From a virus: a stretch of 52,689 nucleotides of DNA. Shown here in pieces: positions 23,408-44,696 of the stretch. Within the stretch, counting starts at the first letter, position 1; each line of letters begins with the position of its first letter. Position numbers and translations under genes: made by a program. A model generated the notes under the pieces. That model was not told the origin of the DNA. It was given only the letters and a program-made list of their open reading frames with translations, and made no database searches. The stretch is taken from positions 1 through 52,689 of IMG/VR virus record IMGVR_UViG_3300007351_000008; one strand, 5' to 3'.

Positions 23408-26400
23408 CTAGAATGGCGCCTCTATTCCGAGGTCAGACCGCTCCGGCAGGTTGTCCCTGATCTCTCTGATCTTCGGGAACTCCCGCAGCACCTGAACCCG
23501 AGCCGCCTGCTCATATTTCGACTTCACGTCGCTGATGAGCTGGCCCTTTTCCTCATCGTCCGCCTCGAGGTACTTGTCCCCGAACGGGCCTTCGCCTTTT
23601 ATCATCTCGCTCAGGGCTTCGACAAGCGATCGGTCCTCGAACGCTTCCAGGGCGCGGATCACGTGCTGCTTGCGATTGTCCGCTAGGTCGTTCAGGTTTT
23701 CGTCCGACAGCAGGGCGGATGCCTTGGCGTTCATCAACGTCACGAGCCGGTTCTGCGCCTCGGGGAGGTTGTCCAGGGGGATGTTGCGGCCCTTGATCGG
23801 GATGTAGGACGGATAGCGCAAGGCCCTGTTGAGACGCAGCAATTCCCGGTCAACTGGCAACGCTTTGCCGGTCGACGACATGCGTGAAGGGATCAGCGCC
23901 TCCCACGGCTGCCCCAGCATTCCCTCGGCAGAAAGCTCCCGCCCCCAGATATCGAGGCGCGGGGGGAGGGTTTCCGACAGGTACGGCGTTCGCTCCTTGG
24001 CGGCGGCCCACAGGCTCCAGGTCTGGCGCAATACAGGATCCTTGATTTCCTCGATCCAGGCGACGCCGGCGGGCACGAACGAGCGAGCAGCGCTTTTCAT
24101 GTAGCGATCGGCGAACTGTGACGGCTCGCTCATGGCCTGTACCAGATTGGCAAAGCCAATCATCGTCGTTTTCTGCATCATCACGTCGGCGAGCGACATT
24201 GTGGACGCAGCCCAGATTTCATCCCACTCTCGATTGACCTTGCCGCCCTGGTAGCGGGTGATTTCCGCAAGCGCCGCGCCCATGAGCAGCGGCATGGCGC
24301 CGGGATCGAAGCGGCTGATCGGCACATAGACGAAGGTCGGCATTCCGTCCTTGCCGATCCCGTCTGGGACCTTGATGGACCACGGGCGCCAGCCGCCGCG
24401 CATCATGGCTTGGCGCTTGTTGTCGTTCTTCGCCGGACCCGGGCCCGTCACCCAGCCGTCCATGGCGAGATCATAGCCGACACCGAGGGCAATCGTCCCT
24501 ACTCCCATCTTGGCCAGCGCAATGTCGCGTTTGGCGCCGCCGGCCGCGAGATCTGCGCGCATCTGATTGGACACAAGCCCGATCGGAGAGCGGTCGGTGA
24601 AGAAGTTGAGGATCTTGCCCGGCGTATTGGTGAAGGGCATGACGAAGTTGCCGAGGAACCGCAGTCCTGCATGATCGGCGTTGCGGAGCTGGTTGATGGC
24701 CGTGAGGATGCGCCCCGGCTCGCTGGTGAAGGTGTTGACGCCGGCGAAGTCCCGCGCGCCGGCGCGGATGGCCTCGGTCGGGTTGTCGAGCAACTCCTGC
24801 AAGCGAATGGGGAATTGATCCGCAGGGATCTTTCCCCGAGCTACCTCCTCGGACGCCGCGCGCAAGGCCGAGGCTTTGAGCTCGGCCCCGTAGTGCAGCT
24901 CCTTGAAGAAAGCGTCGGACGCTCCCAGAGCCCGGAACGGCAGGTTGGTGACGCTGCCCATCATATCGAGCCCCTTGCCCATGAAGCTCTCGGGGTTTAC
25001 GCCCCAATGCTCTGAGGACATGCGCTGCACGTAGGGAAGCTCTGCCTGTGCCCCGCCCCATTGCTGCTGATTGGTCTTGAAGGTCTTGGCCATGGCGCGG
25101 AAGGCATCGCGCAGGTGCTGCTTCATCCCCCAGGCGAGATAACCGGCCTCCTGCGCCTTGACGCCGGAGATGGGGTCGAGAACCTCGCCGATCATGCCGG
25201 CAATCTTCCGCTCGCCGACGACGAGACCAAGCACCTGGGCGTTGGAAGCGAAGTTGACGATGTGCGTCTTCGGCCCGCTGAGCAATCCCGCCTTCCATAG
25301 CTCGATCACGGTATCGAGCGACTTGGCGGTCACGGACTTCTGGATGACCGAGGGGGGCAGCTTGTCCGGGCCGCGCTGCAACAGGTCGGAGATGGCTGCC
25401 GCCTTGGCGCGCAACACGTCCTCCCCGCCCATGGCGGAAACCATGCGCCGCAGCTCCTGGGTATAGAGTGCGGATTCGCCCTTGGTCTTGCGCAGGATGT
25501 TCAAGGCGCGGCCGGCTTCGGCCTGGGCCGGGACATAGAGGTTCTGCGCCATGCGGAACACGCGCAGCATGTGATCCCAGGCCATCAGGTCTTCCGGCCC
25601 AGCGTTTGGAGACGTGGCGATCTGGGTGACGCGCTTTAAATCTTTCAGCGCCGACACGTAGATGTTGCCAGCCGCTTCCAACTGCACGGCATCGAGTGCC
25701 TTGCCTTTGACAGCCCCTTCCTCGACCAGCATTTCGATGGCGGAGAGGGCGTTGGCTTTCTGGGCGGTCTCCTGCCACGTCTGCACAACGCCCTTACCGC
25801 GGGCTTTGAGCTCTGGCGCGTAGGCATCCATGACCTGACCGGCCATGGCCTTCATGTCGGCGTCGGTCTCGATCTTAGACCAGTTGAATTTGAACTCCTC
25901 TGAAAAGGCTGATGCTGGCGGCGCGCCATCGGCAGCTTGAGCTAGTCCCTTCGGGTCGACATTTGATGTCGTCGCATCGAGCGCCTTCGCCGCGAACTGG
26001 TCCGGCACACCAAGATCATTGGGTCCGATCTTCTGCTCGATCCGGGAAATCAGCGGCTCATCTACCGTTCCAATGACAGCTTCCGCTGGCGTGGCAGGGA
26101 CAGGGCGGACGCCGTTATCAATGGCACCGTCAGCTTGGCCGATCTTCGGAACGTCGGCGTTGTCTGCGAGTTCCGCTGCCGCCCGTGCCGCCCGGATACG
26201 CCGCGCGCCGGCGACCACCACCGGAATGAGCACGTTGGGGACGACACCAACCAAGGCATTGCGCAGCCGACCTTCGGCATTGGCATCGCCGGGCTTGGCC
26301 GCCAGAGCATCAACCTTGAGGTAATCGTTGACCGGCTTCATCACGCCGGGGAACACCTGCTCTGCTGCCTGCAAGAGGTTGGCGAAGTTCGGCTCGTTGC

Positions 26401-27253
26401 CCTGCTGTGAGGCGTAATCAGCGATGAAACCCTTGGTGAGCGCCCCGCCGAAACTGTTGCCGATTCCCGTTGCCCGTCCTGCCACGCCATAGCCAGTGGC
26501 GAACTGCGTCAGCCCCTGCAGGATGCTAGCCGTCACCGTCTCTGGGACGTTTCTCACCCCGCCGGGATTGGGGAGGTTGATGTCGATTTCCTTGATGCCC
26601 TTGGCCTCATCGCCGAACAGGGCTTTCGGTTTGAAGGTTCCGTCCTTGTCATAGATCTGAATGGCGAAGGGGATTTCGCCGACGTTCTCGTTCATCCACG
26701 TGGCAGTGTCGCGCGCCGAATCGATGATGGCTTCCGCACCCCGCAGCGGCCCGCCGATGGCCCAATGACCCGCTTCAGTGAAGGCGCCGGACAAATCTTT
26801 GCCCACAGTAAGAGCCCCAGACCCGATGCTCTTGGCCGTGTCCCACCACGAGCTTTGCTGCGGTTGAATCGCGGATGGTCCGACGAGATTGGAGAGGTAG
26901 TCATCGCCTTCCGCCTGGTCGCGGGCCTCGAGGTTCTTGCGGTAGTCCTCATCCAGCGGCGTGTTGAACAGGGTGTTGAAATCGGCCGGCGGCTGCGCTT
27001 CGGAGACCTGCACATCGGCAATGTTGTGGACGAGCGGACGCAGGGTATCGACGTTGTTCTCGGGGCGTTGCAGGTCCTCGAAGCCATATACGCGGCGCGG
27101 ATCGATCTGACGCATATTGGGATCGATGTCGGGCTCCGGCGCTGGAACAACCATGGCGCCGTCGACTGGCGAATCCGGCGTGTCGCCAGTCGACGGCGGC
27201 CCCCACTCGTCATATGGAGGGATGTAGTTGCCCGGCAGTTTCGGGATTGGCAT
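23408..27253 (-). CDS. Large internal virion/ejection protein (T7 gp16-like position)
   Basis: 1281 residues. Pro-rich N-terminus, scattered hydrophobic helices (for example FATGYGVAGRATGIGNSFGG and VVPNVLIPVVVAGA), and long helical regions. The order after gp11, gp12 and gp14-like genes, the size and the mix of amphipathic and membrane-like helices fit the ejection proteins that form a channel across the cell envelope. A LWKAGLLSGPKTHIVNFASN segment and AFTNTPGKILNFFTD-like segment resemble large phage polyvalent-type proteins. No catalytic residues identified. Confidence 0.75.
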   Translation of the reverse strand: MPIPKLPGNYIPPYDEWGPPSTGDTPDSPVDGAMVVPAPEPDIDPNMRQIDPRRVYGFEDLQRPENNVDTLRPLVHNIADVQVSEAQPPADFNTLFNTPLDEDYRKNLEARDQAEGDDYLSNLVGPSAIQPQQSSWWDTAKSIGSGALTVGKDLSGAFTEAGHWAIGGPLRGAEAIIDSARDTATWMNENVGEIPFAIQIYDKDGTFKPKALFGDEAKGIKEIDINLPNPGGVRNVPETVTASILQGLTQFATGYGVAGRATGIGNSFGGALTKGFIADYASQQGNEPNFANLLQAAEQVFPGVMKPVNDYLKVDALAAKPGDANAEGRLRNALVGVVPNVLIPVVVAGARRIRAARAAAELADNADVPKIGQADGAIDNGVRPVPATPAEAVIGTVDEPLISRIEQKIGPNDLGVPDQFAAKALDATTSNVDPKGLAQAADGAPPASAFSEEFKFNWSKIETDADMKAMAGQVMDAYAPELKARGKGVVQTWQETAQKANALSAIEMLVEEGAVKGKALDAVQLEAAGNIYVSALKDLKRVTQIATSPNAGPEDLMAWDHMLRVFRMAQNLYVPAQAEAGRALNILRKTKGESALYTQELRRMVSAMGGEDVLRAKAAAISDLLQRGPDKLPPSVIQKSVTAKSLDTVIELWKAGLLSGPKTHIVNFASNAQVLGLVVGERKIAGMIGEVLDPISGVKAQEAGYLAWGMKQHLRDAFRAMAKTFKTNQQQWGGAQAELPYVQRMSSEHWGVNPESFMGKGLDMMGSVTNLPFRALGASDAFFKELHYGAELKASALRAASEEVARGKIPADQFPIRLQELLDNPTEAIRAGARDFAGVNTFTSEPGRILTAINQLRNADHAGLRFLGNFVMPFTNTPGKILNFFTDRSPIGLVSNQMRADLAAGGAKRDIALAKMGVGTIALGVGYDLAMDGWVTGPGPAKNDNKRQAMMRGGWRPWSIKVPDGIGKDGMPTFVYVPISRFDPGAMPLLMGAALAEITRYQGGKVNREWDEIWAASTMSLADVMMQKTTMIGFANLVQAMSEPSQFADRYMKSAARSFVPAGVAWIEEIKDPVLRQTWSLWAAAKERTPYLSETLPPRLDIWGRELSAEGMLGQPWEALIPSRMSSTGKALPVDRELLRLNRALRYPSYIPIKGRNIPLDNLPEAQNRLVTLMNAKASALLSDENLNDLADNRKQHVIRALEAFEDRSLVEALSEMIKGEGPFGDKYLEADDEEKGQLISDVKSKYEQAARVQVLREFPKIREIRDNLPERSDLGIEAPF

Positions 27254-27340: not shown

Positions 27341-27589
27341 ATGAACTTTGCCGCCATGCTGCTGATCGCTACGCTTGGGAACGGCCCGCTGCTGCACAAA
27401 GTCGGCGACTGCACGCAGCTTGAGCAATCTGAAGAGGGCGCAAAGGTCTACATGGACGCCCTACTCGTTCGCCTGAATCAACTGGCGGCAGAAGGTCTTT
27501 CCCCCAGTGAGGCGATCAAGCGCGCACAACAGGAACCGGAACTGAACGAGCTGTGGCGCCAGTCCATGAAGGCGTCATCGTGCTATTAG
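27341..27589 (+). CDS. Lone + strand gene inside the late operon (moron-like)
   Basis: 82 residues from ATG 27341 behind GGAG (27329-27332). Short hydrophobic N-terminus (FAAMLLIATLGNGPLL), then acidic helices (LEQSEEGAKVYMDALLVRLN; SPSEAIKRAQQEPELNELWR). It is opposite to all late genes around it and fills the 320-bp gap between the two giant ejection genes, overlapping the end of one by 15 nt. Independent expression in lysogeny is plausible. Function unknown. Confidence 0.55.
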   Translation: MNFAAMLLIATLGNGPLLHKVGDCTQLEQSEEGAKVYMDALLVRLNQLAAEGLSPSEAIKRAQQEPELNELWRQSMKASSCY

Positions 27590-30500
27590 CGGCTGCATAT
27601 CGCCTGGCGGCTGCTTCGGTCCATTCTTCAAAAGACGCTCCCGCGCCGCTTTGACGTCTGGATGTTCGCGCGCCATCTCGCGCGCCTTGTCCTTCGGCAC
27701 CCCTTGGGCGATCAACTCGTCTTCTTTGCCAAACCAAATTCGCGCGTACTCATCGAGCATTTCGGGCGTCCAAGTCTCTTGCTCTGACACGGGCGGCGCA
27801 ACCTTATCGGTATAGCCCTTATCACGCAGCTTCGTCTTGGCATTAGGCACCTCGTCTTCAGCGACGAACTTGCCTTCCTCATCGCGTGGTTGTACCTGCG
27901 AATGGTGTTCTTGCTTGTCACCGCTTGCAGCAGTAACGCCGCCGGCGGCAGCGCCTTCCTTGGGATTGGCTGCAAGCTGCTCGTCGTTGTCGATGGTCCA
28001 GTTCGCGCGTGTGTCCTCGGCGAGCTTTGAATGCTCGCGGGCGAACTTGTCGAACTCGGCAAACGCTTCCGGCGCCTTGTAATGCCTGAGGAGATTGGCG
28101 GCTTGCCCGTCAATGCTAGGCTCCTTGCCCTTGGCCAAATCCTCGGTCGCCTGCATGAGCTGGGTTGGTGTCAGATCGGAGCGGTAGGAAAGAACGCTCT
28201 CGATCGCATCTGTGACCTTGTTCTGCTTCTCGTCCCATAGAGCGTCCTTCTTGCGCAGCTCAAAGCGGCGCTCGGCGAACTGGCGCAGGGGATGATCTTC
28301 GGGGAGAGCGAGAAGCATCCCAGCAGGAGCTGCTTCCTTGGGGTTGGAGAAGAGGGTTTCTCCGGTGGTGGAAGATTTGACGGTGCCGGGCTTGATGGCA
28401 ATATACGACCAGCCGTCGCCCTCGGTGCCGAAATTCCGGTATCTGATTCCATCGTAGCCCGCGTCAATCAGTCGGTCTCTGATGGCTTTGAAAGCCCGTG
28501 GCTTATCCCCTAGCAGCGGCGTGATTTGATCTGTTATGCCCGACAGCGCTGGCTCTGTCGCTTCGAGATGCCTAGCAATTTCGTCAGGCCATGACCACCG
28601 CATATCAGGAAGCGTGACGACCTTGTTGACGTCAAGCGTGACCGGGATCGTGCGTGCTGGTTCGCCACTGGCTTCCGATGATCTGGCGACTTGGTTAGCT
28701 CTGGTAAGCGCCTGCTGCTCAGTGCCGAAGTGAGTACCTATGTCGGCGCTGCGGTTGATGTCGAAGCGTCTGAAGCTGCGATCTGTTCCGTGGTACGCGG
28801 ATACCGGGCCAGGATGCGGCGCATCTGCACTGATCCCCTCCAGGGCCACAGGTGAAGAGGTGAGAGGGCGGGAGGCTTCAACGTGTGCCGGAGCTTTGCC
28901 TGAAACGGTTCTCGCGGCGCCAGCAACAGGCGCTCGCATTGCTCCGGTTCCTGCCACCGCCAGCCCAGGAAGCACGACATCCTCTGGCCGTGGGAACGTC
29001 TCTTCGGGTGTGTATTGTGCCTGGCCGGTCGCCTGCTCGACTGAGCGGCCGAAGCGGCCCAGCGCTTCCCTGGCGTCGACAACCGCCCCCGGCATGGCAA
29101 ATGCCGGACCATCTCCCCATGAGCCTATCGGCAGCATGGAGGCCCGCTCCTGCGGAACGTCCCCGCGCATTTCATGGCCATAGCCACGTTGCATCATCTG
29201 CGACAGGTACGGATATGGCCCGACGGGGCGTGGCTGGCCTGCGGAGTCCTGATCCTTCGGCCCGCCAAGCCGCATCATCCCCGGCGGGCGATCACCTTCC
29301 GCCGGTTCCTCGACGAGACCGTCGCCGGATTGCTTTGCTCCCTTGCCTTGTGCCGGCTGCTGCACCTGAGGCGGGGTCTGCGGGGGGATTTTCTCGCCCT
29401 TCGCTGCCGCCTCTTCCTCAAGCACCTTGCGCCAGCGCTTCAGCGTCTTGGCGTCCTCGGCATACTTGGACCTCAAGGATTGATAGGCAACGGGGTCATC
29501 GAGAACGCCAGTGGCTTCCTTCTGGAACTCCGTCGCCAATCTCTGCTCGGCCGCCGTCAGTTCGTCAAAGCTCATCGTCTCGTTGGTCGCCTTGCTCCAC
29601 CGCTCGGGCAGAGGAAGCGATGACCGGCGATCGCGCGACTTGCGCAGCTTATAGTCGTCGATCATCTCCTTGGCGCGCTTCGACACCTTGGCGTATTCCA
29701 GCGAGCCCTTCTGTGATTCCTGATCGACGTAGTCGCGGAACTCCTTCATCACTCGCTGCGAGCGCTCAATGCGGTCCCAGCTATCCCCCTGGTGCGTTGC
29801 CACTTGCTCGCGCACTTCCCCGACCCAGTCCTTGGCCCACTGCGGGGTCCGGGTCTCGGGGTTCAACTCCTTCTGCACCGAGCGGCGGATTTCGTCGAAC
29901 TGAGAACGAGAGATGCGATTGCCGAGGAAGTATTCCGTCGCCTGCTCCAGCCCTTCCTGGGGCTTTTCATCGACGAGTTTCAACAGGCTCAGGTGCTCTT
30001 CCGGCTCCAAGGGAAGCACCGAATCCGACTTGTACGCCTTCAGCAGCGCCTCGGTGTTTTGCGGGCCGAGGCGAGCTTCGTTCTGCTCGATCCATTCCAG
30101 CGTCAGCGTGCCGTCCATCTTGTGCTTGATGCCTTCGAGGCGCGCGTAGGCGGATTCTTCCTTGAAGGCTCGCTCCTCCATCTGCTCGCGCTGACGCTCG
30201 GCGGTCAGCGCCATGGAGCGAAGCTGGGGGAGCTTGTCGATCAGCTTCTCTCTCAGGTGGGACTGCACCGGGCGCCAGCCGCGGCGCAGCGCCGGGACGG
30301 GGAACTTGCCGGAAGCATCGGCTACCTGATATGGGGCATCTGGACCGACGGACTCCTGCGGCCCGCCTTCCTGTCCTACAGCCTGCGCGTTCTCTCCTTG
30401 TGGACCGCCAAGCCCGGCATAGGTCGTTAGCCCGCGCTGCGCCAGCGGCGTCTCTTTGCCTGCATCGACGGGAAGCAGCGCGATCTCCTGCTTTGAGAAC

Positions 30501-32281
30501 GGCTGGGTGTTGATCGCACCCTGAGGGAGGTCATGGTCGACGGCGATGTCGACGCGGCCGGAGCCTTTGCCCTTGAACGCCGATCCGGTGTCATGCACCA
30601 CGCCCTTGACGTTGGTGAGGGTGATGGTCTTCCCCGACGCGTCCTTGAAGGTGATCTCGGGGATGATGTAGGTCTTGCCGAATTCCGACTTGTCGCCGGC
30701 GAGGGTGACGTACTCGGAGCGCTTGGCTGCCACATCGACAAGCGTCCTCACCTCGGCCTTGCCGTCGGGACCTTTTCTCGCCGCCGCATAGCCGCCTTCC
30801 ATGGCGTCCCCGCCCTTCTGGGGGGAATAGGCCGTCGCAACCGCCTTGAGGCCCTGTGTGGCCTGCTGCTGGGCAATGGCCGATTGCGGGATGGTTCCGG
30901 GCTTGCGCTGCGGCGCCTGACCGGGACGTGGAATGTCCTCGCCGGTGATGTCCTCGACCTGTGCGACGTTGCGGTTCTGCGGCTCGTTCTCGAGGTAGGC
31001 CAGCACCTCCTTGCGCCATGCGGCCTCGAGCGGGTTCTTGCCTGAGCGCGTTGCCGAGCGTCCGGCCCCGGGATGCGTCAGGATACGCTCCGGTGTGATA
31101 CCAAACTGCTGCGCCACAGCCTTCACCGCGGCCGCGCCATTGGCGATGGCCTGTGGGGAGAGCTTGTCCCCCTCGAACCCGCGATAGGCAATGCCGATGG
31201 CGTGCTTGTTGAACGCTCTGGCGTGCGGCGCCTGCACGTTCAAAGGCATCTCCTGATAGACGCCCTTGTCGTCGAAGGTGATGTGATAGTTGGGGATGTT
31301 TCCCGGAGCAGGAAGCGCGCGTGTCTTCGGGTTTCCGGAGACGTCGTGCAGGATGATGTAGCGCACCTGATTGGACGCCAGCGGCCGGCCCGATCTTCCG
31401 TTGGAGAAGTCGCGGAAGTTGATGTCCGAGCGGCGCTGCGGGTTGGCACCCCCTGACAAGCCTTGCCCCGATGGGGTGCCTGGCAGCCCCTGCCGTGGGA
31501 TTTGTCCCTGTTGGGCGTTGGGAAGGATGCCCTGCTGGGGCTGGATAGCGCCCTGCGGCTCGGGGGGCAGAATTTCTTGCTGCGGGACCTCTTCCAACTG
31601 GTCGATGAAGCGCATCGCCCGCGGCACCATCTCCTGCACGAGGTCAGGATCCCGCACGCTGGTCATGACGTCGATGGCCCGCCCGGCGGCCCTGGCCGAC
31701 AACTCGTCTTTCAGCGTGTCGGGAAGTGGTGCCGTCTTGATGATGGCGTTGACGCCTTCCAGCGTCGTCTGCAGCGTCTGGTCGAGTTCCTCCGGGGGAA
31801 CCGTCGCCACCTTGCCGAACTCCGTCGCCACCGTCTCGTCGATGGAGGAGATCAGCGTATCCTGCCGCACCTTGCCGCCGAAGCGGGCGGCGCTCTCGAG
31901 CTTCGGGCCACGGCGCTGCTCGAAGAACAATTTCGCCTGGTTCTGGTTCTTGGCGCTGATGCTGCCCAGAGCTTCCGACGTGCGCTGGTCGTAGAAGTCG
32001 GAGCGCTGCGTCAGGTAATCGTCGCCCGTTCCCTGGTAGGTATTCTGCGCCTCGATGTTGGCAAGATCGATGTCCGTGTCTGTGCGGAGCATCGTCATCT
32101 TGTCGTTGAAGTCCTGCTCCTTGGAGTTGCCCATGTCGCCAAAGGCGTCACCGAGAGAGGCGATAGAGCTGCCGAGCTGCTGCAAGGCACGCCCGGGCGC
32201 GCCCCATCCCGAGCCGGCAAGGTCCGGCTGATGGGCAATGCGGGGCTCCAGTTGGGGTTCGGCGCGGGGAATGCGTACTAT
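27575..32281 (-). CDS. Giant ejection protein with amidase, 3D and ADP-ribosyltransferase-like regions
   Basis: 1568 residues if started at an AUA at 32281, placed 6 nt after a perfect AGGAGG. The next usable start (TTG 32185) has no site and loses a conserved-looking N-terminus (VRIPRAEPQ). Helical N-terminus; about 306-410 an N-acetylmuramoyl-L-alanine amidase-like region (VRYIILHDVSG, NYHITFDDKG, LTHPGAG, zinc-ligand histidines); about 475-585 a 3D/MltA-type region (ATAYSPQKGGDAMEGG, VVHDTGSAFKGKGSGRVDIAVD split by motif); about 1160-1310 an ART-like region (SAYHGTDRSFRRFD, GTHFGTEQQA, GYDGIRYRNFG). Expected to be packaged, injected, to cut peptidoglycan and perhaps modify host proteins. 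Confidence 0.8.
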   Translation of the reverse strand: MVRIPRAEPQLEPRIAHQPDLAGSGWGAPGRALQQLGSSIASLGDAFGDMGNSKEQDFNDKMTMLRTDTDIDLANIEAQNTYQGTGDDYLTQRSDFYDQRTSEALGSISAKNQNQAKLFFEQRRGPKLESAARFGGKVRQDTLISSIDETVATEFGKVATVPPEELDQTLQTTLEGVNAIIKTAPLPDTLKDELSARAAGRAIDVMTSVRDPDLVQEMVPRAMRFIDQLEEVPQQEILPPEPQGAIQPQQGILPNAQQGQIPRQGLPGTPSGQGLSGGANPQRRSDINFRDFSNGRSGRPLASNQVRYIILHDVSGNPKTRALPAPGNIPNYHITFDDKGVYQEMPLNVQAPHARAFNKHAIGIAYRGFEGDKLSPQAIANGAAAVKAVAQQFGITPERILTHPGAGRSATRSGKNPLEAAWRKEVLAYLENEPQNRNVAQVEDITGEDIPRPGQAPQRKPGTIPQSAIAQQQATQGLKAVATAYSPQKGGDAMEGGYAAARKGPDGKAEVRTLVDVAAKRSEYVTLAGDKSEFGKTYIIPEITFKDASGKTITLTNVKGVVHDTGSAFKGKGSGRVDIAVDHDLPQGAINTQPFSKQEIALLPVDAGKETPLAQRGLTTYAGLGGPQGENAQAVGQEGGPQESVGPDAPYQVADASGKFPVPALRRGWRPVQSHLREKLIDKLPQLRSMALTAERQREQMEERAFKEESAYARLEGIKHKMDGTLTLEWIEQNEARLGPQNTEALLKAYKSDSVLPLEPEEHLSLLKLVDEKPQEGLEQATEYFLGNRISRSQFDEIRRSVQKELNPETRTPQWAKDWVGEVREQVATHQGDSWDRIERSQRVMKEFRDYVDQESQKGSLEYAKVSKRAKEMIDDYKLRKSRDRRSSLPLPERWSKATNETMSFDELTAAEQRLATEFQKEATGVLDDPVAYQSLRSKYAEDAKTLKRWRKVLEEEAAAKGEKIPPQTPPQVQQPAQGKGAKQSGDGLVEEPAEGDRPPGMMRLGGPKDQDSAGQPRPVGPYPYLSQMMQRGYGHEMRGDVPQERASMLPIGSWGDGPAFAMPGAVVDAREALGRFGRSVEQATGQAQYTPEETFPRPEDVVLPGLAVAGTGAMRAPVAGAARTVSGKAPAHVEASRPLTSSPVALEGISADAPHPGPVSAYHGTDRSFRRFDINRSADIGTHFGTEQQALTRANQVARSSEASGEPARTIPVTLDVNKVVTLPDMRWSWPDEIARHLEATEPALSGITDQITPLLGDKPRAFKAIRDRLIDAGYDGIRYRNFGTEGDGWSYIAIKPGTVKSSTTGETLFSNPKEAAPAGMLLALPEDHPLRQFAERRFELRKKDALWDEKQNKVTDAIESVLSYRSDLTPTQLMQATEDLAKGKEPSIDGQAANLLRHYKAPEAFAEFDKFAREHSKLAEDTRANWTIDNDEQLAANPKEGAAAGGVTAASGDKQEHHSQVQPRDEEGKFVAEDEVPNAKTKLRDKGYTDKVAPPVSEQETWTPEMLDEYARIWFGKEDELIAQGVPKDKAREMAREHPDVKAARERLLKNGPKQPPGDMQPLIAR

Positions 32282-32291
32282 GGCACGCCTC

Positions 32292-32774
32292 CTAGCTGTT
32301 GATCATGAATGGGCTACCACCCCCGCCGCCCATGCCCTTGGCTGCTCCGCCAAGGCCGGACAGGAACGAGGATGCGGCAGCGATTTTTCCGGCAGTGCGA
32401 TGGTTGGCGGCGGAGGCTTCGAGTGCGCGGGCGCGGTTCTCTTCCGCAATCGCCTTGCTCTCGCCTTCAACGTACTGGCGGCCCTTATCGGTGGACTCGG
32501 CAAAGGCATTCTCGCCGAAGATCACCAGGGCCGCAGAGCCATAGGAAGGATCGACATTCGCCTTTGCGGATAGGGCGATGCCTTCCGCCTGCTGCTTCTG
32601 ATACTTGCGGGCGATGTCTTCCTGCTTGGCATAGGACGTCTGACGCTCCGAGCGCGCATTGATGCGCGCCACCTTGGCGTTGTATTCGTCCTGCTGCGCT
32701 TGCGCCTTCGACTGCTGCATGGCGCCGATACCCGACACCACCGCGCCGACCACGCCGAGAAGGGGTCCGCACAT
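32292..32774 (-). CDS. Internal virion protein, T7 gp14-like
   Basis: 160 residues. MCGPLLGVVGAVVSGIGAMQ, a hydrophobic/Gly N-terminus starting Met-Cys as in T7 gp14, then a long helix (QAQQDEYNAKVARINARSER) and a Gly-rich end. Position between gp12 and the giant ejection proteins supports the gp14 role of forming the outer-membrane part of the ejection channel. An upstream in-frame start at 32813 overlaps the tail gene and is less likely. Confidence 0.75.
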   Translation of the reverse strand: MCGPLLGVVGAVVSGIGAMQQSKAQAQQDEYNAKVARINARSERQTSYAKQEDIARKYQKQQAEGIALSAKANVDPSYGSAALVIFGENAFAESTDKGRQYVEGESKAIAEENRARALEASAANHRTAGKIAAASSFLSGLGGAAKGMGGGGGSPFMINS

Positions 32775-41009: not shown

Positions 41010-42827
41010 CTATTGCGGGGTGCCGACTTCGGCCATCATCTCGGTATCTGCGCCGGCATTGGCGGCCATGTCCTGCATGCCCTGCATGGCGCGGGGCGAG
41101 CCTTGCACCTGCGTGGCGAGGCGTCCGAGCAATCCCTGAATATCGAGGCCCTGGGCTGTGGCGGCATCGGTGATGGACTTGATCGCCTTGCCGCCGCGCT
41201 CGGCGATCTGCGCCGCGGGAACACCCATGTTTAGCGCCTGCTGACCTTGCGCCACCTGCATCGCCTGCTCGATCCCCTCATCGTCCTTGAGCAGATCGGG
41301 ATCGTTGTTGAACAGATCCCACAGCCAGGCAAAGAGTTTGTTGATGTCGACGTTTGCCTGCACGATCTGCGCTGCCACATCAGGCCCGAACATGCCGATG
41401 AGCTGCATCACCTGCACGATGCCGTTGGCCGACTGCTGCTTCTGTGCCGTGGCGATGGGTGACACGTACTCGACGGTGAACTCCTGGCCCTGGATTTCCT
41501 GCGGCGGCTGCGGCAGCAGACCTTGACGCGAGAGGATGCCGAACACGCGCTCGACCAGAGGACCGAGCATCTCGCTCTCGAGGCGGCCGATAAGCGGGCC
41601 GAAGAGGCGCATCTGCTCGGTTGTGCGCTGGATGACCTCGGTTGCCGTCATATTGGCACGGTCGGTCATCCTGAGCAGGTCGGCGTAGAAGGTGCGCAGC
41701 ACCTGCTCGCGCAATGCCTGGATGTCCTCGACGACCATCTGCACGCCCTGCAGCGACACGGGCTGCAGCATCACGCCGTCGTTGGGATTGCCGCGCCAGT
41801 AGTTTATGCCGCCGGGCTGGGTGCGGGTCTGGCCGACGACACCATCATCGCGCAGCCACATCGGAGGATCGGCCGCCTTCTGCAGCAGCTTGATCTTGGT
41901 CAAGGCCATGGCCTGCAGCATCTTCACATCGGGAAGCGCCACCATGCCCGGGCCGCGGCCGTAGATTTCGCCGGCGTACTTCGACCAGCGGGGAATGAGG
42001 TAGGGGAACTCGGGGAAGCCCGAGGTCTCGAGTTCCTCGCAGGTCTCATGCTCAAAATAGCACGAGGCCCAGGGCATGTTCTCGGTGTCCTTCTTGCCGT
42101 ACTCGCGCTCCTCGCGGGGGAACACGGCATGCACGACAACGACCATCTCGTCGTACTTCTTGTCCTCGTAGAGATCCTTGACGCGGTCGGAGATTTCCCA
42201 GCCGTGCGCCTGCTTCATCTGCATCATCTGGCGCACGGTGTAGGTGGTCTTGCGGAACACTGTGTCGACACGGCCCTCGCCGTTCTCGGCGAAAACGATT
42301 TCCGACAGCGGGCGGGCTTCGAACATCAGCCCGCCGTCATCGCGTTGCCCGACGAACAGCGCCGCAGTCCCGAACGACCCAAGATCCAGGTAGACCTCGT
42401 GCAAAGCGGTGGTGAAGTTGGTCCCCGGCTGATAGAGCCGCTGCCACATCACCTCCTCGACGTCCGCCAGGTACTTCTGCACCATGGGGCTTTCGTTGAG
42501 ATCGAGGGTTTCCCCGTTCTCGCCCAACTGGACGCCGACCATACGCAGCGAAAACCATTTCGAGGCGGGGTTGGTCGCCATGCCATGCAGGCCGGCCGCT
42601 AGCATCTCGTTGGCCATGATGCCGGTGGGGTCGAAGACCTTGGTCATCTTCTTTTCGCCGGCCGTGCGCATGCCGACGAAATCGATCTTGCGCGGGGAGA
42701 TGACCTCGCCGATCTCCTGCCAGTGCGCCTCGACGTTGGTGCGCTCGGAAGAGCCCTTCAAATCGTCAAAGCGGCGCTTCAGCCGCTCGATGAGCTCGTC
42801 GGCTTTCTTCCCCTCGGATTTTGCCAT
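41010..42827 (-). CDS. Portal (head-tail connector) protein, T7 gp8-like
   Basis: 605 residues, the normal length or slightly longer. Contains WQEIGEVISPRKIDFVGMRT, FDPTGIMANEMLAAGLHGMA, PASKWFSLRM, YLDLGSFGTAALFVGQRDDG and MTATEVIQRTTEQMRLFGPL, all typical of the head-tail connector family. Twelve copies form the DNA gateway at one capsid vertex. Starts 6 nt after the last gene of the MCG array. Confidence 0.95.
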   Translation of the reverse strand: MAKSEGKKADELIERLKRRFDDLKGSSERTNVEAHWQEIGEVISPRKIDFVGMRTAGEKKMTKVFDPTGIMANEMLAAGLHGMATNPASKWFSLRMVGVQLGENGETLDLNESPMVQKYLADVEEVMWQRLYQPGTNFTTALHEVYLDLGSFGTAALFVGQRDDGGLMFEARPLSEIVFAENGEGRVDTVFRKTTYTVRQMMQMKQAHGWEISDRVKDLYEDKKYDEMVVVVHAVFPREEREYGKKDTENMPWASCYFEHETCEELETSGFPEFPYLIPRWSKYAGEIYGRGPGMVALPDVKMLQAMALTKIKLLQKAADPPMWLRDDGVVGQTRTQPGGINYWRGNPNDGVMLQPVSLQGVQMVVEDIQALREQVLRTFYADLLRMTDRANMTATEVIQRTTEQMRLFGPLIGRLESEMLGPLVERVFGILSRQGLLPQPPQEIQGQEFTVEYVSPIATAQKQQSANGIVQVMQLIGMFGPDVAAQIVQANVDINKLFAWLWDLFNNDPDLLKDDEGIEQAMQVAQGQQALNMGVPAAQIAERGGKAIKSITDAATAQGLDIQGLLGRLATQVQGSPRAMQGMQDMAANAGADTEMMAEVGTPQ

Positions 42828-42833
42828 TGAGGC

Positions 42834-43031
42834 TTACCCGCCCAATACTGGGGCAGTTGTAGGAGCAGCGTCGGTCACGCCGCCGGCGCCTGTGAGCATG
42901 GTCGCCGAGTATCCAGAGGTGCTGGCACGGCGAGCCGCGGTCTGGCGCTCGCGCGTGGCGTCGATCTTGGAATCCCGTTCGGGGATGGGGGCTGGGGGAG
43001 CCTGGGGTTGGGGAGGCTTGCTGCCGCACAT
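42834..43031 (-). CDS. MCG-array protein 7 (VLGG-tail type)
   Basis: 65 residues from an ATG after GGGAG. MCGSKPPQPQAPPAPIPERD, then RRASTSGYSATMLTGAGGV and a TTAPVLGG end. Unlike most of the array it lacks SFGSELG; its A-T-M-L-T-G part resembles small podoviral proteins found beside the portal gene. Last gene before portal (gap 6). Confidence 0.7.
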   Translation of the reverse strand: MCGSKPPQPQAPPAPIPERDSKIDATRERQTAARRASTSGYSATMLTGAGGVTDAAPTTAPVLGG

Positions 43032-43036
43032 TCGTG

Positions 43037-43216
43037 TCAACTCCCGCTGGTTCCGCCGAGCTCGGATCCGAAGCTCGATGCGGTTGAGGTGTTTGTCTGC
43101 GGCGCCGTGGTGGTGGTGAACATGCCCGCCTGCTCCCGCCGCGAGGGCGTCGCCTGCGTCTTGACGTCGACGGCAGCCGGTGGTGTTGAGCTTTTCGAGC
43201 CTCCGCCTCCACACAT
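43037..43216 (-). CDS. MCG-array protein 6
   Basis: 59 residues from an ATG after GGAGG. Starts MCGGGGSKSSTPPAAV, has a Thr-rich middle and ends SSFGSELGGTSGS. Same N-terminal Cys and C-terminal tail as the neighbouring copies. Confidence 0.75.
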   Translation of the reverse strand: MCGGGGSKSSTPPAAVDVKTQATPSRREQAGMFTTTTAPQTNTSTASSFGSELGGTSGS

Positions 43217-43218
43217 AT

Positions 43219-43419
43219 TCAGCCTCCAAGAACGCTTGCCGTGACGCCGCCAGGCGCCGGGTTGCCGCTGCCGCCGAGCGTCTGCGGATCGACAGAGCCG
43301 TCGGCCACACGCCGCTGCGTGGCACCCGACGCTTCCGCTGCCGTATCCGCCCCACGGGTGGCGATGGTCGGATCTGGCTTGGGAGCCGGCGGGGGCGTTT
43401 GTTTCTTTCCGCCACACAT
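43219..43419 (-). CDS. MCG-array protein 5 (VLGG-tail type)
   Basis: 66 residues. MCGGKKQTPPPAPKPDP, Ala/Gly/Thr-rich middle, ending VTASVLGG instead of SFGSELG. Start overlaps the previous stop (TGATG), after GGAGG. Confidence 0.7.
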   Translation of the reverse strand: MCGGKKQTPPPAPKPDPTIATRGADTAAEASGATQRRVADGSVDPQTLGGSGNPAPGGVTASVLGG

Positions 43420-43586
43420 CAGTTCTGTCCTCCGAGCTCGGAGCCAAAGGAAGCCTGCTGGCCCTCGGGGCTCATGGTTGCAGCATTACGCACGACGCCA
43501 TCCTGATCGACGCCATAGCCCGGCTTCGCGGGCGGTGCCGGAGCAGGAGCCGGGGCGGGCGCTGCCGATTTCTTGCCGCCGCACAT
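43419..43586 (-). CDS. MCG-array protein 4
   Basis: 55 residues: MCGGKKSAAPAPAPAPAPPA, then GVDQDGVVRNAATMS and the tail ASFGSELGGQN. TGATG overlap with the previous gene and with the next. Pro-Ala repeat forms a probable extended linker. Confidence 0.75.
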   Translation of the reverse strand: MCGGKKSAAPAPAPAPAPPAKPGYGVDQDGVVRNAATMSPEGQQASFGSELGGQN

Positions 43587-43756
43587 CAGCCGGTTGCCCC
43601 CAGCTCAGAGCCGAACGAGGTCTGCGTCTGCGAATTTGTTGTCGCGGCGAGCTTCTGCTGCCCGCTCATGTCGTTCGACTTGTCGGCAACCGCAAACGGG
43701 TTGGCCTGCGGCACCACGGGAGCGGGCGTTGGGGCTTTCTTCTTGCCACCACACAT
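43586..43756 (-). CDS. MCG-array protein 3
   Basis: 56 residues: MCGGKKKAPTPAPVVPQ, polar Gln/Asn-rich middle and tail TSFGSELGATG. An upstream in-frame start would add residues read from the neighbour; the ATG after AAGGGTGA is preferred because all copies begin with Met-Cys. Confidence 0.75.
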   Translation of the reverse strand: MCGGKKKAPTPAPVVPQANPFAVADKSNDMSGQQKLAATTNSQTQTSFGSELGATG

Positions 43757-43760
43757 GGGA

Positions 43761-43952
43761 TCACCCTTGGCTAGTTCCGAGCTCGGCTCCAAAAGAAGCC
43801 GGCTTCTGGTCATCGGTGGATGAGATCACGTTGGCAGCCGCTGCCCGACGCGCCGCTTCATCGGCAGCGGCCTGGGAAGCCCGTGACGTCGACATGTCAG
43901 TGACTGGCGCCGGCGCGGGGGCAGGAGCGGATTTCTTCTTACCTCCGCACAT
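43761..43952 (-). CDS. MCG-array protein 2
   Basis: 63 residues: MCGGKKKSAPAPAPAPV, an Ala/Arg helix (ASQAAADEAARRAAAANVIS) and tail ASFGAELGTSQG. Very strong site AGGAGGTG. TGATG overlap with copy 1. Confidence 0.75.
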   Translation of the reverse strand: MCGGKKKSAPAPAPAPVTDMSTSRASQAAADEAARRAAAANVISSTDDQKPASFGAELGTSQG

Positions 43953-44158
43953 CAGGCACCTCCTGGTGTGGCAGTGGCTGATGTCGTGCCGGAAAGCTCC
44001 GAGCCGAACGACGCCTGCGAGGTCGAGACTGGGTTCTGCGCTGCCGCCAACTGCTGCTGGCTCGCCGTGCTGCCGCGATCTGCGGCGTCATAGTCGAACG
44101 TCGTCGGCGGCGTGGGCGGCGGGGGTCTCTGCTCTTTGGCCTTCGATCCGAAACACAT
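43952..44158 (-). CDS. MCG-array protein 1
   Basis: 68 residues: MCFGSKAKEQRPPPPTPPTT, a middle with DYDAADRGSTASQQQLAAAQ and tail ASFGSELSG plus 12 residues. First and most divergent N-terminus of the array (Phe for Gly). Lies 16 nt after the gp13-like gene. Confidence 0.75.
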   Translation of the reverse strand: MCFGSKAKEQRPPPPTPPTTFDYDAADRGSTASQQQLAAAQNPVSTSQASFGSELSGTTSATATPGGA

Positions 44159-44174: not shown

Positions 44175-44696
44175 TCAAGCAGCGCTCTTGTCGGCGCGCA
44201 CGAAATGCGGCTCGAGAATGGCGCTGTCCTCCTCGCGCAACCAGATGAAGCGCGTGAAATCTTCCCCGTCCTTGCCGTAACGGCGCATGGTGAACTCTCG
44301 CTTGCCGCCAGCAGCCTCGATCAGCTTGTGCGCTTCCTCATAGTCGGACTTGGAATCGCAATGGATGCGATGGCCCTTGCACACCTTGAGAATCTCGTTG
44401 GCTTCCTTGCGCGCCCAGCGGACCAGCTCTATGGCGACGTTTTTGAAGTCGTCGGTGCCGAACATCCAGATGGACCACACGCCGGGCCAATCCTCGGTGA
44501 AGGCGAGAGCCGCAGCGGGCTTGCCCTTCCACCAGGCGACCTGGCCGCGGCCTAGGTTCCTGATCTGCGCATGCGCTTCCATCGCCAACTGCAAGGGATT
44601 GTCATGCGGGCGCAGGGCGTAGATCTCCGCCTTGTCGCGCTCGCGCATGTTCATGATGATGAATTCTAGGTCGTTGTAGGTGATATCGGTGAGCAT
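44175..44696 (-). CDS. T7 gp13-like / GNAT-fold virion protein
   Basis: 173 residues. LAFTEDWPGVWSIWMFGTDD, then KVCKGHRIHCDSKSDYEEAH and KDGEDFTRFIWL follow the order of an acetyltransferase-like fold, as in T7 gp13 (DUF2833), an internal virion-assembly factor. Enzymatic activity is not implied. T7 gp13 is about 138 residues, so this is longer. Confidence 0.65.
   Translation of the reverse strand: MLTDITYNDLEFIIMNMRERDKAEIYALRPHDNPLQLAMEAHAQIRNLGRGQVAWWKGKPAAALAFTEDWPGVWSIWMFGTDDFKNVAIELVRWARKEANEILKVCKGHRIHCDSKSDYEEAHKLIEAAGGKREFTMRRYGKDGEDFTRFIWLREEDSAILEPHFVRADKSAA

Follow-up and report, generated by a model that had tools for sequence, protein, structure and literature searches.

We report an array of seven consecutive minus-strand genes, encoding proteins of 55-68 residues, that lies at positions 42834-44158 between the gp13-like and portal genes of a podovirus-type genome. 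We propose with moderate confidence, on the basis of sequence comparison and of analogy with T7, that the array encodes small, mostly extended virion peptides of the portal and ejection apparatus that have multiplied by tandem duplication and become sub-functionalised. We favor this reading because the array precedes the portal gene, as gp6.7 and gp7.3 do in T7; because a profile of its last copy ranks these two T7 proteins at the top beyond the level reached by shuffled controls; because its proteins share a Met-Cys start with a gp14-like protein in a genome carrying an ejectosome gene set; and because its copies are under purifying selection, six of them have one-to-one orthologues in a relative, and AlphaFold predicts a helix between extended ends. 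Most likely, the peptides would tether the internal core to portal and tail parts and be ejected at infection, with their presence in the virion, their docking and their ejection all postulated by analogy. Small portal-side virion peptides are easily overlooked by annotation and cryo-EM, and the locus described here, generated by stepwise duplication (1, 2, 3, 6 and 7 copies) with each copy distinct, constitutes a natural series for studying the roles of docking ends and centre. The link to T7 gp6.7 and gp7.3 also suggests a function, open to testing, for the widespread podovirus family phrog_831.

The window, that is, the whole stretch of DNA analyzed here (52,689 nucleotides), is an entire contig (C23) of a 5.4-Mb assembly in which the array has no second copy. 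The contig encodes podovirus-type terminase, portal, major head protein, tail tube, gp14-like and amidase-bearing large proteins and another large internal virion protein, with repressor-like, RecT-like, exonuclease, HNH and methyltransferase genes at its opposite end. Matches to phrog_332, phrog_376, phrog_418 and phrog_6651, together with the amidase-bearing protein, supply the portal, nozzle, gp14-like and large internal virion proteins of an ejectosome-type podovirus, as in T7. The genes of most relevance to the array are the following:

41010-42827, minus strand: portal (head-tail connector) gene, directly downstream of the array; phrog_332 (E 3e-133) and PF12236 (E 1e-132)
44175-44696, minus strand: gp13-like internal virion protein/acetyltransferase-like gene, directly upstream of the array; phrog_308 (E 1e-11)
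32292-32774, minus strand: gp14-like internal virion (core) protein, starting MCGPLLG; phrog_418 (E 1e-15)
27575-32185, minus strand: candidate large internal virion/ejection protein of 1536 aa with an amidase domain (PF01510, E 2e-11), positioned after the gp14-like gene
23408-27253, minus strand: large internal virion protein of 1281 aa; phrog_6651 (E 8e-18)

The listed reading frame of the amidase-bearing protein starts with TTG, and PF18760, an ADP-ribosyltransferase domain of polyvalent proteins, matches its residues ~1127-1273 at a sub-threshold level (E 8e-4, short of the curated cut-off).

An earlier note, made from the letters of the window, had described seven consecutive reading frames of 55-68 residues, each with its own ribosome site. 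All seven were re-found, each with a plausible site that mostly falls within the end of the preceding frame. Adjacent frames overlap by 1 nt at three junctions and are spaced by 2-5 nt at the others, and 6 nt separate the end of copy 7 from the portal start, an arrangement that recurs in relatives. In gene order, and with types (A, B, C) assigned from the comparison with relatives, the copies are:

43952-44158, minus strand: copy 1, A type, first gene, 68 aa; MCFGSK, PPPPTPPTTFDY, SFGSELS; orthologue L028 175-372 (sister support 0.96)
43761-43952, minus strand: copy 2, B type, 63 aa; MCGGKKK, SFGAELG; phrog_831 (E 7e-4); best match L028 469-645
43586-43756, minus strand: copy 3, B type, 56 aa; MCGGKKK, SFGSELG; orthologue L028 650-817 (sister support 0.88)
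43419-43586, minus strand: copy 4, B type, 55 aa; SFGSELG; lacks a one-to-one orthologue in L028 and clusters with copy 2
43219-43419, minus strand: copy 5, divergent, 66 aa; VLGG end, no FGSELG; orthologue L028 817-1020 (sister support 0.97)
43037-43216, minus strand: copy 6, 59 aa; MCGGGGSK, SFGSELG; best match L028 1023-1205
42834-43031, minus strand: copy 7, C type, portal-proximal, 65 aa; APPAPIPERD, GYSATMLTG, VLGG; phrog_831 (E 2e-7); orthologue L028 1208-1411, 80% identical (sister support 0.86)

As noted previously, every copy opens with Met-Cys-Gly or Met-Cys-Phe, and copies 5 and 7 finish with VLGG. The SFG(S/A)EL(G/S) motif attributed to the other five is present in copies 1-4 and 6, although it is not always terminal as had been stated, since copy 1 has residues beyond it.

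Comparative analysis was built on IMG/VR contigs (80 loci obtained from portal scans), because bacterial genomes, when searched with the portal, yielded hardly any relatives; a DNA-level similarity search of the phage collection returned no match, and a tblastn search with copy 7 was also empty, probably owing to the low-complexity filter. The nearest relative, the independent contig L028, has a portal 73% identical to that of the window and carries six such genes at the same place, which pair one-to-one and in order, by alignment score, with window copies 1, 2, 3, 5, 6 and 7. A tree of 67 copies recovers four of these six window-L028 pairs as sisters, with support of 0.86-0.97, and places copy 4 with copy 2. 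Over 351 codons, the six pairs show a dN of 0.35 and a dS of 1.79 (dN/dS about 0.2), the portal yields 0.20 and 0.98, respectively, and copy 7 alone has a dN of 0.20, like the portal. The array copies are thus under purifying selection, and the array is more than a product of chance, disposing of the concern, raised by the earlier note, that selection might be absent. The same note had considered that the array might stem from an assembly error or from one broken long gene; both explanations are rejected, since an independent contig holds six ordered orthologues. We also regard it as very improbable that the middle copies produced by duplication are neutral and being lost: their number does vary among relatives, but six copies have orthologues in unchanged order in L028, and dN is much lower than dS. 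Within the searches made, only the window and L028 hold an array this large whose copies are each distinct and maintained.

Copies in the relatives were identified with two profiles, one for the first and middle (A/B) type and one for the last (C) type, and the additional copies in L038 and L013, which had escaped the profiles, were read by eye. Copy number falls with portal distance, from seven in the window and six in L028 to two to four at portal identities of 54-69% and to one in nearly all loci below about 50%, and the copy sets observed among relatives comprise a single copy, A+C, A+B+C and six. An array-type gene stands directly before the portal in all relatives where it can be placed. 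The single-copy protein is of the C type, begins with MC or MGG and usually has a tail of the form G..STILTG...KK.LLG; a C-type gene precedes the portal also in phiV10 (L012) and Carin1 (L010). In the tree, the last copy forms one clade apart from the FGSELG copies. The phrog_831 profile matches copy 7 (E 2.4e-7) and copy 2, leaves copies 1, 3, 4, 5 and 6 without a match at E 0.001, and extends to single-copy proteins elsewhere, namely that of Cobetia phage Carin1 (E 4e-16) and those of distant relatives in IMG/VR. Among 379 genomes of the phylum, only three contain phrog_831, one of them the window's own.

Judged from these profile matches, copy 7 is a member of phrog_831, a family of proteins of ~70 aa with no annotated function that it resembles in sequence and in placement before the portal, and the array appears as a tandem expansion of that lineage. 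The C type is single-copy in distant relatives other than L086, which has two, whereas in the window it is the last of seven. Because what single-copy relatives carry is a C-type protein that matches phrog_831, the last gene is the ancestral one, and duplication gave rise to the FGSELG genes as well as to the divergent copy 5. A and C formed the first pair, B came next, and the larger arrays of L028 and the window followed. The repeated duplication put forward in the earlier note is hence borne out by the copy series and by the separate clade of the last copy.

The conservation of ends and centers depends on what is compared. Between paralogues in the window, identity is 57% at the N-terminus, 34% in the middle and 45% at the C-terminus; between window and L028 orthologues the corresponding values are 69%, 65% and 52%, so that orthologous centers are kept about as well as N-termini and better than C-termini. 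The proposal that ends are conserved while centers diversify therefore holds between paralogues, but free diversification of the centers is wrong between orthologues. Since centers are 34% identical between paralogues and 65% between orthologues, each copy is a distinct, maintained gene with its own center, which is the unusual feature of this array. This pattern could also be accommodated if the shared ends were packaging tags and the centers small effectors delivered to the host envelope or cytoplasm, with duplication widening the payload repertoire, and gp6.7 and gp7.3 are indeed ejected in T7 (PMC11784390). We deem such a cargo role unlikely, given that the centers span 20-30 residues, are mostly rich in Pro, Ala and Gln and have no accepted domain match in a Pfam search, and that this analysis gave no pointer to a host target.

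At the C-terminal ends, the ribosome site of the next gene falls within the last codons of many copies and may constrain the LGG endings. It does not explain the conserved C-terminal ends as a whole, because FGSELG, which precedes the stop by a median of 10 residues, is left uncovered. One might extend this argument and view the small frames as a translational-coupling leader that sets portal dosage through re-initiation, with LGG ends kept for the ribosome sites they encode, in keeping with the tight junctions between frames. The low dN/dS and copy-specific amino acid conservation, the distance of FGSELG from the stop, too great for a ribosome site, and the retention of the last copy even when alone make this a highly unlikely account.

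The closest described parallels to peptides of this kind come from T7, where twelve peptides of the core protein gp6.7 surround the portal barrel via residues 2-15 and contact the gp15 ring via residues 34-50, and the tail-channel protein gp7.3 has six copies of its C-terminal peptide at the adaptor-nozzle junction (PMC11784390). Both are docked peptides linking portal, core and nozzle, both are found in the virion and ejected at infection, and gp6.7 makes with gp14 an extended channel at the outer membrane (PMC11784390). In T7, the genes for gp6.7 and gp7.3 both lie shortly before the portal gene. T7 gp6.7 (PF17570, phrog_1391) starts with MCFSPK and has PAP and FGG motifs, and its N-terminal features, MC(F/G)..K and PAP, are present in the array; unlike the array proteins, it occurs as one copy per genome and has 88 aa and a Lys-rich C-terminal part. 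T7 gp7.3 (PF11653, phrog_1320) has at its C-terminus a conserved basic/Gly/Ser peptide, with which the G-x-x-S-T-x-L-T-G stretch of the last copy may be compared, but has an amphipathic Lys-rich N-terminal region that is absent from the array proteins. T7 gp14, represented in the window by its phrog_418 protein, shares the Met-Cys start of the array proteins but differs from them in length (160-196 aa), in being encoded after the nozzle gene and in lacking overall similarity. The Met-Cys start common to gp6.7, gp14 and the array proteins may characterize ejection proteins of the portal and core. Across the T7 (L175) and ICP3 (L176) proteomes, Met-Cys starts occur only in gp6.7 and gp14 homologues (2/56 and 2/50 proteins, respectively).

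To relate the array to these proteins we relied on profile comparisons. For sequences that are short, disordered and compositionally biased, hhalign alignments of the C or A/B type with the N-terminus of gp6.7 gave probabilities of 47% and 44%, which are suggestive and not significant; the C type against the C-terminal stretch of gp7.3 gave 23% (P 9e-4), a weak score, and the A/B against the C type 95%. A C-type profile built without any T7-like sequence ranked gp6.7 first (E 0.095) and gp7.3 second (E 0.16) among 56 T7 proteins, and the two were again at the top among 874 six-frame T7 reading frames. In 18 further diverse T7-like loci, which are related to one another and for which most per-locus E-values exceed 0.01, gp6.7 or gp7.3 came top in 16, against a mean of 2.5 and a maximum of 8 for 60 column-shuffled profiles, and mean scores over these loci were well above the shuffled distribution. 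The N-terminal half alone placed gp6.7 first in 16/18 loci, and controls with Met-Cys kept and the remainder shuffled reached a mean of 2.7 and a maximum of 11. Because controls with Met-Cys-Phe kept reached a maximum of 15/18, sometimes close to the real profile, the start motif carries much of the gp6.7 signal, though not all of it. The C-terminal half alone did not find gp7.3, and by these comparisons the match of the last copy to gp6.7 is firmer than that to gp7.3. Of 177,635 distinct PDB chain sequences only two reached E<10, one of them the gp6.7 homologue 9vvp_S (E 4.1), and the FGSELG profile had no match among solved structures. We do not claim membership in the gp6.7 or gp7.3 families, because the curated profiles do not match: PF17570 and PF11653 yielded nothing for copies 1, 3 and 7 at the curated cut-off, nor did phrog_1391 and phrog_1320 for any of the seven. 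In position and end motif, the last copy would correspond to gp6.7 through its N-terminal MCF..K..P..PAP arm and, more weakly, to gp7.3 through its C-terminal K/R..AG..S...G peptide. An equivalence between FGSELG and loop II of gp6.7 (residues 34-50; PMC11784390), which in T7 begins, at residue 34, with the FGG motif, was considered and is retained as no more than a guess, the profile of FGSELG copies scoring only marginally above shuffled profiles for gp6.7.

AlphaFold predicts, with low-to-moderate confidence, one helix between extended ends (residues 18-38 in copy 7 and 25-40 in copy 1). In the portal/ejection model that we favor, the Met-Cys arm would bind the portal barrel or core and the short, copy-specific central helix would bridge the two ends; the C-terminal peptide would dock at the tail-channel junction in the last copy and on an internal core ring in the FGSELG copies. 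At infection, the peptides would exit together with core proteins and contribute to forming the envelope channel, and the duplicated copies would presumably divide the docking work among themselves. The virion or assembly peptide with two docking ends envisaged in the earlier note is plausible, with the proteins that the last-copy profile ranks first both docked in T7 (PMC11784390), while the FGSELG end is without a demonstrated counterpart.

Instead of acting in the mature ejection machine, the peptides might bind the portal during procapsid assembly, in nucleation or in scaffold or terminase contact, as capsid- or scaffold-side factors. The location of the array between terminase/gp13-like and portal/scaffold genes would suit such a role, as would work cited in PMC11784390 according to which gp7.3 is needed for infective T7 assembly yet absent from the mature virion. 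We consider assembly factors possible but doubtful, since the best sequence links are to proteins present in the virion and ejected (PMC11784390) and the Met-Cys start is shared with the gp14-like core protein. A preprint on Vibrio phage Peru-2 reports a small protein, encoded at the same genomic place and likened to the array proteins by that place alone, in virions at low abundance by mass spectrometry (PMC13320782), offering by analogy an independent hint of virion presence. The paralogues treated in the available part of the report on Sulfitobacter phage PhiGT1 (PMC10386132) are tubular tail proteins and not of the array family. As a tentative extension of the portal/ejection model, a heterotypic set of seven ejectable peptides could take the place of the one-peptide homo-oligomer of T7, with shared ends docking on portal and core and conserved, copy-specific centers giving each copy a different partner or a different delivered activity; if true, the ejection apparatus would have diversified through tandem duplication.

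Several relatives depart from the general pattern. The distant relative L086 has two adjacent C-type copies (2264-2663), apparently an independent duplication of the last gene, and the first copy of L032 (5100-5405) carries a long Gly-rich tail instead of FGSELG, for a total of 101 aa. In L035 (5336-5570) and L029 (5256-5572), unrelated small reading frames interrupt the series, separating the middle from the last copy or the first from the middle one; one, in L035, is membrane-protein-like. Longer pre-portal proteins in Bordetella, Caulobacter and Pelagibacter phages (L007 3101-3508, L008 2061-2579 and L005 2807-3397) have a similar tail, T.LTG..GV...LLG or near to it, attached to differing N-terminal portions, so that the C-terminal peptide looks as though it could move between proteins as a docking module.
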